In this document: one piece after another, positions 13,781-15,144 of the stretch
Position numbering within the stretch: the stretch's first letter is position 1
Layout: the number at the start of each line of letters is the position of its first letter
Assembly (NCBI GenBank): GCA_027315445.1
Contig: DAHUYA010000139.1
Span: forward strand, 1 to 42,702
Origin: Acidimicrobiaceae bacterium
GTDB taxonomy: Bacteria > Actinomycetota > Acidimicrobiia > Acidimicrobiales > RAAP-2
DNA length: 42,702 bases
Direction: 5' to 3'
Position numbers and translations under genes: made by a program
Notes under the pieces: generated by a model
Database searches by the model: none
What the model saw: the letters and a program-made list of their open reading frames with translations, nothing else
Told to the model about the DNA's origin: nothing

Positions 13781-13969
13781 ATGACCTCCCGGGCCGAGCT
13801 CTCCTCGCTCGCCGCGTCGCTCGACGAGCTGACCCGCCGGGTCACGGCCCTGGCCGAGAGCGCCAGTGGGGCCGACGAGCAGGACCTGGCGGCCGATCTG
13901 TTCGCAGTGGAGCGCTCGCTCACCGGTGCGCTCCGCCGGCTCAGCCGGCTGGCGGAGGGCCGGCGCTGA
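13781..13969 (+). CDS. Small hypothetical protein (62 residues)
   Basis: I do not recognise a family. The product is predicted to be largely helical, with alternating hydrophobic and charged residues (SLAASLDELTRRVTALAES, then LFAVERSLTGALRRLSRL), suggesting a short amphipathic or coiled-coil hairpin. There is no membrane segment or cysteine. It is divergent from hisD (81 bp apart) and convergent with the VapC-like gene (54 bp apart). The ATG has a -10-like hexamer 6 nt upstream. Similar small helical proteins beside his genes may exist in relatives, but I cannot check. Coding status is moderately likely. Confidence 0.55.
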   Translation: MTSRAELSSLAASLDELTRRVTALAESASGADEQDLAADLFAVERSLTGALRRLSRLAEGRR

Positions 13970-14023: not shown

Positions 14024-14419
14024 TCAGACGGCGTAGAGGACGACGTCGTTGCCGAGCAACCCGGCCACCGACCGGAGGGCATTCTGGCGGGAGGCGACCA
14101 CCGCCGCCGCGTGCCGGGCCGCCGACTCCGCCACCGCCACTGCCGCCAGATCGGTCGTGTCGACCCGGGCGGCCAGCTCGCCGACCCTGCGGGCCAGCTC
14201 GTCGCCGAGCGGCTCGACTTCGGCCCCGGCCAGCAGCTGCTCGAGCCGGTCGACCCGGCCCTCGCTCCGGTAGGCGTCGGCCACCGCCGCCGCGGGCACC
14301 ACCGGCACGATGCCGGTGGCCAGCGCCGCCCGGTGGAGCGCCCAGACCATCCGATCGCCACGCGCCGCTGCCCGGAGCGCGCCGGCGCCGTAGACGAGCC
14401 CCTCTCGAGCAGGGCTCAC
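14024..14419 (-). CDS. VapC-like PIN-domain protein with degenerate active site
   Basis: 131 residues resembling actinobacterial PIN toxins: LVYGAGALRAAARGDRM, ALHRAALATGIVPVVPAA, LLAGAEVEPLGDELARRVGELA and AAVVAS. In active relatives (from memory) the first motif is YDTGAL, and later acidic residues follow the T-S-D pattern and the TSDPDD loop. Here D is G11 in YGAGAL, the loop reads ASRQNA, and the second aspartate after TTD is alanine. Only D90 remains clear. It is therefore probably nuclease-dead or a diverged regulator. GTG 14419 overlaps the stop of the antitoxin-like gene as GTGA. Confidence 0.72.
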   Translation of the reverse strand: MSPAREGLVYGAGALRAAARGDRMVWALHRAALATGIVPVVPAAAVADAYRSEGRVDRLEQLLAGAEVEPLGDELARRVGELAARVDTTDLAAVAVAESAARHAAAVVASRQNALRSVAGLLGNDVVLYAV

Positions 14420-14682
14420 CGGCGGCGGACCCGGGACGCCACCCCGGAGACGCCCGAGAGCAGCCGGGCCAGCAGCGCCTCCCCGGCGGCGATCTCCTCG
14501 GCGGTCAGCGCGCCGGCCTCACGCTCCCAGCCCACGACCCCACGTAGTCCCTGGCGGACGCGGAGCTGTCGTTCGGCGGCGGCAGACAACCACGCGCTGA
14601 AGGACACGCCGTCCTCCCGGGCAGCCGTCTCCACCGCTCGGGCGACGTCGTCGGCCAGTGACACCGAGCGCTTGGAGACCAC
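14416..14682 (-). CDS. VapB-like ribbon-helix-helix antitoxin
   Basis: 88 residues. The N-terminus, SKRSVSLADDVARAVETAA, forms the ribbon and first helix, followed by GVSFSAWLSAAAERQLR, the second helix; this pattern is typical of small DNA-binding antitoxins that repress their own promoter. The C-terminal part (GWEREAGALTAEEIAAGEALL) is the region that normally wraps the toxin. The frame is open further upstream, but GTG 14682 is supported by TACCCT exactly 6 nt before it. The VapC-like gene follows with GTGA coupling. Confidence 0.75.
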   Translation of the reverse strand: MVSKRSVSLADDVARAVETAAREDGVSFSAWLSAAAERQLRVRQGLRGVVGWEREAGALTAEEIAAGEALLARLLSGVSGVASRVRRR

Positions 14683-14688
14683 CTGCTC

Positions 14689-14694
14689 AGGGTA
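14689..14694 (-). promoter_or_regulatory. -10-like element for the VapBC-like pair
   Basis: TACCCT on the minus strand with a 6-nt spacer to GTG 14682. The surrounding sequence contains GGTGTTACC, which could be part of an operator, but no clear palindrome is seen. Confidence 0.4.
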
Positions 14695-15144
14695 ACACCC
14701 GAAGTAGTACCCCGGGGGCGAATCCGACGAATCTCCGAGCACGCGGAGCGGGCCCGGGGAGTTGCCCATGGCCTGGACCCTTCGGGCCCGGGGCTTGGCG
14801 GGGCCGACGGCAGACCCCCTGGGACGGCGCCGGCGGCGAGCCCCGTCGGTCGAAGACCTCGTCTCGAGCGGCTCGCGTCCGACGGCGCCCCGGACGCGAC
14901 GACGGCGCCCCGAAGGGCGCCGTCGTGCGAGCGGGTCAGGCGGCGGATCCCGACTCCGCTCTACGGAACCAGGTGGCGGGAACCGGTTCCGTGACCACTC
15001 TACAACACGGACCGGGTGCGCGCGCGGTTTTTCACCCACCACCCGACCTGGGCCTTTGCACATACACCCAGGTGACGGCCGAGTCACTGCAACCTAAGGT
15101 GTACCGGAGCCGCAACGAAACCTTCACGCCTCGGCGCCCGGCTG
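14695..15144. other. 450-bp non-coding gap with several inverted repeats
   Basis: This is the only stretch over 300 bases without a gene. It separates nth (ending at 15145) from the vapB-like start, both on the minus strand. I find no tRNA, tmRNA, SRP or RNase P signature. It contains an 11-bp perfect stem at 14899-14926, a competing stem at 14875-14897, an 8-bp stem (ACGGAACC/GGTTCCGT) at 14963-14992, and GTGAC/GTCAC at 15072-15087. Open frames across it on both strands look like GC-rich spurious frames. Confidence 0.6.
14875..14926. repeat. Competing hairpins with a 12-bp direct repeat
   Basis: ACGACGGCGCC (14899-14909) pairs perfectly with 14916-14926 across a 6-nt loop. GCGTCC (14875-14880) can pair with GGACGC (14892-14897). 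The segment GACGGCGCCCCG occurs twice (14881 and 14901), so either copy could pair with the right arm. There is no U-run on either strand, so a simple intrinsic terminator is not evident. Confidence 0.6.

Follow-up and report, generated by a model that had tools for sequence, protein, structure and literature searches.

A VapBC-type gene pair with a conserved, degraded PIN active site as a probable DNA-binding regulator in part of an actinobacterial family

A two-gene operon resembling VapBC toxin-antitoxin systems lies in the 42,702-nucleotide stretch of Acidimicrobiaceae DNA analyzed here (contig DAHUYA010000139.1; the window), where an antitoxin-like gene is followed by an overlapping gene for a PIN-like protein that has lost most of its active-site acids. 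Comparison with related genomes suggests that this is probably a domesticated VapBC-type pair, kept as a DNA-binding regulator, in which the inactive PIN protein would act as a co-repressor or a bridge. The evidence comprises a loss of PIN motifs common to 37 genomes, purifying selection on both genes, a fixed chromosomal position and an operator-like palindrome that recurs inside parB and yidC beside oriC and at the start of an oxidoreductase-thiolase operon.

RESULTS

A conserved clade lacking PIN active-site residues

Motif 1 of the PIN-like protein of the window reads Y10-G11-A12-G13 (YGAG), motif 3 reads TTD90-LA-A93 (TTDLAA) and motif 4 reads A-S-R111-Q112-N113 (ASRQNA), with the canonical aspartates of motifs 1 and 3 replaced by G11 and A93, the canonical aspartate or asparagine of motif 4 replaced by R111, and D90 retained. 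Intact relatives mostly carry YD[TA]G, xD[VI]VD and [TS]S[DN] at these three motifs. A preliminary description, made from the letters of this stretch, had read the same losses (YGAG, an alanine after TTD, and SRQNA) and had added that only one acid seems to remain, which holds for the four canonical positions, where D48 of motif 2 is the sole acid left, and slightly understates the overall number, D90 being kept as well.

The pair is present in 37 of the 172 genomes of the GTDB family surveyed, 31 of which, the window included, form clade A (PIN copies at least 59% identical to the window query, the 30 others spanning 59 to 79%) and six of which form clade B (48 to 52%). All 37 PIN copies have glycine at motif 1 and arginine at motif 4, and the second acid of motif 3 (motif 3b) is replaced by A, V, or S in every clade A copy (31/31) and by G or T in every clade B copy (6/6); Q112 is invariant within clade A only. 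In the 39 other relatives, on the other hand, motif 1 and position 90 both have aspartate without exception, motif 3b has aspartate in 36, and motif 4 carries D or N in 37. An acidic residue occupies position 48 throughout clades A and B (of the 31 clade A copies, 26 have E and 5 have D), and the other relatives have E, Q, or R there in 19, 19, and 1 copies, respectively; position 90 is D in 29 clade A copies, E in the remaining two, and D in just two of the six from clade B. In the tree, clades A and B together fall on one side of a branch with support of 100/98. These comparisons show the loss at motifs 1 and 4 to be more than chance and to be of shared ancestry in both clades (the 11 loci L033 to L043 are not independent of the genomes counted here under G handles). 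Since 37 genomes carry the same motif 1 and 4 state, the pair is not a lone decayed copy; the case considered in the preliminary description, with the full motif in close relatives and this copy alone broken, is the opposite of what was found.

The Pfam PIN match of the window protein is below threshold (E value of 0.0045, 18 bits versus a cutoff of 23.6), and of five motif-1-Asp relatives given the same test, three had no match and two reached 19 to 20 bits; because these relatives also score below the cutoff, the PIN-like family is divergent overall. Within the 39 motif-1-Asp relatives, the motif 4 loop ends in histidine in 19 (15 of them with asparagine first, S-N-x-x-H/T-N-x-x-H) and in aspartate in 20, giving two active-site variants in one divergent PIN family (loci L004 to L032 and L079 to L088). 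The antitoxin had no Pfam match, and NCBIfam returned a subthreshold YlcI/YnfO match alone; its N terminus is predicted to adopt a ribbon-helix-helix fold, and, from the KRSVS motif on, the 36 sequences compared have 40 invariant positions in common. No second member of either gene family was seen at an E value of ≤0.01 in the window's own genome (81% complete), leaving each as a single copy.

Fixed position and purifying selection

Both genes were present at every orthologous locus read, and nth adjoins the pair in all 26 clade A and B regions checked. Beyond the pair, a small opposite-strand gene was found in 24 and hisD in 22 of these regions, three of which (L077, L096, and L104) stop at the contig end, with a fourth (L094, from G398) holding the small gene and no hisD within 4.8 kb. 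In the window, a 62-amino-acid open reading frame (MTSRAELSSLAASLDELTRRVTALAES...) occupies positions 13781 to 13969 (+) between the PIN-like gene and hisD, on the strand opposite to the pair; it is present at 49 to 66% identity in 24 of the 26 orthologous regions, and the remaining two stop at the contig end. The plasmids and viral contigs searched contained no relatives of the pair, and with this and the fixed nth neighbor, the mobile, patchy distribution typical of VapBC was not observed.

The ratio of nonsynonymous to synonymous substitution rates (dN/dS), a check put forward in the preliminary description, ranged from 0.00 to 0.18 for the PIN gene and from 0.02 to 0.25 for the antitoxin gene in the 15 closest pairs, indicating that both genes are under purifying selection. 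Across clade A, of which 30 of the 31 genomes entered the dN/dS and antitoxin comparisons, mean identity was 0.82 for the ribbon-helix-helix part and 0.87 for the C-terminal part of the antitoxin versus 0.68 for the PIN protein.

An operator-like site at the antitoxin promoter

Just upstream of the antitoxin start lies a 21-bp site (GGTACTACTTCGGGTGTTACC in the window) made of two GGTANTACC units with a 12-bp period, its idealized form, GGTANTACCNNNGGTANTACC, consisting of two palindromic units. The corresponding clade A pattern, GGTR-N-YAC-Y-NNN-GGTGYTACC, stands at a fixed place, matching within 4 mismatches out of 16 positions in 30 of 31 genomes at 37 to 39 nt (47 nt in one) before the KRS codon; shuffled sequences gave mean minima of 7.3 to 8.0 mismatches, with 3 as the lowest single shuffle. 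The palindrome overlaps a −10-like TACC[A/C]T, read by eye, which supports the promoter proposed in the preliminary description as a predicted one; the intact antitoxin-like gene and its GTGA junction, also described there, were located exactly (Table 1), and the junction may couple translation of the PIN gene to that of the antitoxin.

Perfect matches to the idealized site occurred in 13 of the 172 family genomes, all in clade A, and in 2 of 397 order genomes (18 genomes belong to both sets, giving 551 scanned in total, 520 of them outside clade A). Both of the matches outside clade A (2/520) stand immediately 5′ of homologous antitoxin genes (MAVTKRSVSLDD... and MAVSKRSVSLDD...), in one case (L007) with the antitoxin followed by an intact YDTG PIN gene; the site is therefore tied to the antitoxin family independently of clade A. 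A palindromic unit and a 12-bp period suit ribbon-helix-helix dimers. Tandem arrays of about four 12-bp units, an arrangement to be expected if a ribbon-helix-helix protein binds cooperatively, were also noted, at L191:9431-9475 (G455) and L208:4977-5021 (G448).

Recurrence of the site beside oriC and at an LLM oxidoreductase-thiolase operon

A search allowing no more than one mismatch found the site in 27 of 31 clade A genomes (45 positions, versus 2 for a reversed-pattern control; the genomes without it are G000, G441, G433, and G399) and in none of 32 other genomes (reversed-pattern control, 6). The 45 positions were assigned to parB/yidC (29), to the LLM/thiolase operon (12), and elsewhere (4: G437:C217, G444:C92, G434:C24, and G461:C54). 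The first two of the latter are look-alike stretches, the G444 copy lying inside a membrane-protein coding frame and probably arising by chance; the other two, in G434 and G461 (L211:5001 and L213:5001), each have a single mismatch and lie away from both the oriC genes and the LLM/thiolase operon. In the window's own genome, the operator was found along with a site in parB and one at the LLM locus (score of 21.3), the latter two with two mismatches each, and no yidC site was found. For scoring, 30 operators and 37 oriC sites were combined into a site matrix, with L044, whose operator spacing differs by eye, and clade B left out.

In parB/oriC regions, a site within two mismatches was present in 22 of 26 clade A regions and within three in 25, and none of 18 regions from clade B or other genomes had a site within three (the counts of 22/26 and 0/18 leave out L191, a non-oriC region of G455). 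By matrix, 24 of 27 clade A oriC regions scored at least 20, a circular figure, as training sites are included; one of the 18 other regions exceeded 15 (G493, at 18.6), with shuffles reaching up to 14.7. The oriC region of G461, outside both the mismatch and the matrix counts, has a perfect parB site; G437, G439, G454 (no ParB hit), G455 (partial ParB hit), and G452 were left out at parB. In the parB genes with in-frame sites scoring at least 15 (24/27), codon 2 of the site encodes T, S, I, V, or N and codon 6 encodes T, S, N, or A, and third-base T is kept at these codons in 21/24 and 20/24 despite the amino acid change, against a background in the same genes of 0.048 for ACT among Thr codons and 0.077 for AGT among Ser codons; likewise, all 43 glycines of the sites are encoded by GGT (0.206 elsewhere).

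parS-like sequences (≤3 mismatches) are separately present in most clade A and non-clade-A regions, beside oriC sites that differ from canonical parS (TGTTTCACGTGAAACA). The idea that the oriC palindromes are parS variants was dropped, as parS-like sites exist separately and the same palindrome occurs in homologous antitoxin promoters. All 14 regions with two sites have parS-like sequences between them; because parS generally lies between yidC and parB, this bracketing is suggestive only and weak if taken alone. Near parAB in genus g213, even the best-fitting parS-like sites have drifted 2 to 3 mismatches away from canonical (L139, L143, L144, L145, L179, L182, L184, L189, and L192), and several other genera keep copies with 0 to 1.

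The second locus is an operon of genes for a hotdog-type thioesterase (by eye), an LLM oxidoreductase (Pfam Bac_luciferase), a thiolase-like protein, and a KAS III-like protein (by eye), adjoined by a divergent GntG/threonine-aldolase-type gene. This locus was not used for the matrix, and each region was compared with 50 shuffles of its own sequence. The LLM site beat all 50 shuffles in 29/29 clade A regions (scores of 14.1 to 32.0) and in 5/5 clade B regions (8.7 to 21.0; G454 left out), and none of the seven outside LLM regions did so (−12.2 to 3.9). In six g213 genomes, the best site lies 5′ of the LLM start (−69 to −140) and not in the first LLM codons, and in G402 and G448, clade A genomes without an LLM hit, a site is kept just before the thiolase gene; this turnover argues for a function at the DNA level.

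Table 1. Features of the gene pair in the window
Feature	Position	Strand	Remarks
Antitoxin-like gene	14416..14682	−	88 aa; GTG start at 14682, TGA stop at 14416; N terminus KRSVSL..., C terminus ...VRRR
PIN-like protein gene	14024..14419	−	131 aa; GTG start at 14419, stop at 14024-14026
GTGA overlap of antitoxin stop and PIN start codon	14416..14419	−	Read from sequence
Operator-like site	14691..14711	−	Just 5′ of antitoxin start; differs from idealized form at 2/16 fixed positions

DISCUSSION

The pattern of conservation is consistent with a sequence of events in which a VapBC-type pair became fixed next to nth in an ancestor common to some of the family, the nuclease active site was lost in that ancestral lineage, and the pair was then kept by selection as a DNA-binding regulator. 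Antitoxin dimers would recognize GGTRNTACC units paired at a distance of 12 bp. Such sites would be bound at the start of the LLM oxidoreductase-thiolase-KAS III operon and also, within clade A, at the antitoxin's own promoter and inside parB and yidC beside oriC. The inactive PIN protein would most probably hold these dimers together as a co-repressor or bridge, retaining the nonenzymatic part of the VapC job. Of the three options raised in the preliminary description (co-repressor, antitoxin sponge, and early pseudogene), the co-repressor fits best, here extended to several conserved candidate sites, and the early pseudogene is rejected.

Several lines of evidence weigh against this regulator reading: (i) the PIN fold rests on a subthreshold Pfam match and motif alignment to relatives with the full motif, comparison with PDB sequences gave no significant match (VapC 5k8j had an E value of 0.077, ranked behind an unrelated toxin at 0.062), and the AlphaFold2 model was poor (mean predicted local distance difference test score of 61 from an alignment of the window and 11 relatives), with nothing below an E value of 4 in a Foldseek search of it against the PDB, a model and search not used as evidence; (ii) the palindrome is absent from the antitoxin's own promoter in all six clade B genomes, and none of four clade B oriC regions has a good site; (iii) 3 of 27 clade A oriC regions are without a good site (scores of 12.2 in G398 and 12.0 in G399, none in G401), and the non-clade-A region of G493 holds one; (iv) the high clade A oriC scores are circular, the matrix having been trained on the same operators and oriC sites, and the parB codon result is partly so, the matrix favoring those bases; (v) four clade A LLM sites score only 14.1 to 16.3 (3 to 5 mismatches) and that of clade B G451 scores 8.7 (7 mismatches), the weakest sites falling within the range of single shuffles, one of which, at another LLM region, got to 17.9; (vi) the median PIN dN/dS over 574 pairs (dS of 0.05 to 1.5) is 0.33, with a maximum of 1.05 in a pair between clades A and B, and that of the antitoxin is 0.13 over 504 pairs in the same range, all-pair medians near saturation and given little weight; (vii) the candidate target sites lie mostly inside coding sequence, which is unusual for repressors; and (viii) the genomes are related, and the co-occurrence of sites may rest on few evolutionary events.

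A more specific possibility, which we regard as tentative, is that the complex, with its inactive PIN bridge, occupies the yidC and parB palindromes that bracket parS-like sites and limits or anchors the ParB partition complex, tied in some way to the lipid-type operon. It would draw on the 14 bracketed regions, subject to the common placement of parS noted above.

The antitoxin alone could also be the working regulator, with the PIN-like protein only a stabilizing partner or an antitoxin sponge for VapB of active relatives in the same cell. The better conservation of the antitoxin across clade A agrees with this, as does a further match to the PIN query in 14 of the 31 clade A genomes at an E value of ≤1e-3, six of them at ≤1e-12, and because of these paralogues our confidence in the domesticated-regulator reading is slightly lowered. 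However, purifying selection acts on the PIN gene, which stands beside the antitoxin at every locus read, and a sponge has no known client in the window's own genome, where no other family member was seen; we consider this alternative unlikely.

Another lineage-specific protein, for example, one that is ParB- or Noc-like, might bind the oriC and LLM sites, their likeness to the operator being coincidence or convergence. The oriC sites do sit in the parAB neighborhood, and clade B has LLM sites and no palindrome at the antitoxin promoter. On the other hand, near-canonical parS is separately present in most clade A and non-clade-A regions, the sole perfect matches in 520 non-clade-A genomes precede homologous antitoxins, and the geometry of the site suits ribbon-helix-helix dimers, which together render a different binder rather improbable.

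It is very doubtful that the PIN-like protein retains nuclease activity or binds nucleotides through D48, D90, and their neighbors, as part of an unusual active toxin-antitoxin system: position 48 is acidic in 37/37 copies and position 90 is D or E throughout clade A, but the acids of motifs 1, 3b, and 4 are gone in 31/31 clade A copies, arginine fills motif 4 in 37/37, D90 persists in only 2/6 clade B copies, and the fixed nth neighbor and lack of plasmid or viral-contig relatives among those searched give no sign of mobility. An early pseudogene that has drifted since its function was lost, to which the lost active site could point, can be set aside unless orthologues were misassigned, given 37 genomes sharing the state with intact frames, the fixed nth neighbor, and the low dN/dS of the closest PIN pairs.

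Whether chromosomal toxin-antitoxin pairs can lose toxicity yet stay for regulation is an old question. In the domesticated pair proposed here, the steps are visible in sequence, from relatives with intact motifs through a dead, conserved clade with an operator-like site to recurring candidate targets that form a testable regulon, and the pair may represent an addiction module turned into a binder of a chromosome region next to parS. Our literature search of titles and abstracts, partial in coverage, returned no case of a dead toxin-antitoxin pair turned chromosome-region binder beside parS, and no dedicated natural roadblock to ParB spreading was apparent from the titles listed (8 of 34). In vitro, a tight DNA binder beside parS (TetR) can restrain the spreading of ParB (PMC7053999), which is an analogy for the origin-region possibility only.

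VapBC and FitAB complexes are hetero-octamers that bind operator DNA, with antitoxin Arg and Gln entering the acidic site of the toxin (PMC3384007). The window pair resembles them in its antitoxin-first overlapping operon, PIN-like partner, antitoxin of apparent ribbon-helix-helix type (as in FitAB), and palindromic operator-like site, and the invariant C-terminal VRRR of the antitoxin recalls the VapB arginine that enters the VapC acidic site in the Shigella complex (PMC3384007). Unlike these systems, the PIN acids are lost and R111-Q112 is part of the PIN protein's own motif 4, where one may speculate that it fills the acidic pocket in place of the antitoxin arginine; the pair also has a fixed chromosomal place, and its sites turn up again at loci with no relation to it. 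The plasmid-borne PrpT/PrpA system has an antitoxin that autoregulates and binds replication-origin DNA (PMC7848731), and the pair described here is similar in that its antitoxin would bind candidate sites in the origin region. In PrpT/PrpA, however, these are plasmid iterons and the antitoxin, of another family, is partnered with an active ParE-like toxin, whereas the candidate sites of the window pair's clade are chromosomal, inside parB and yidC, and its toxin is dead.
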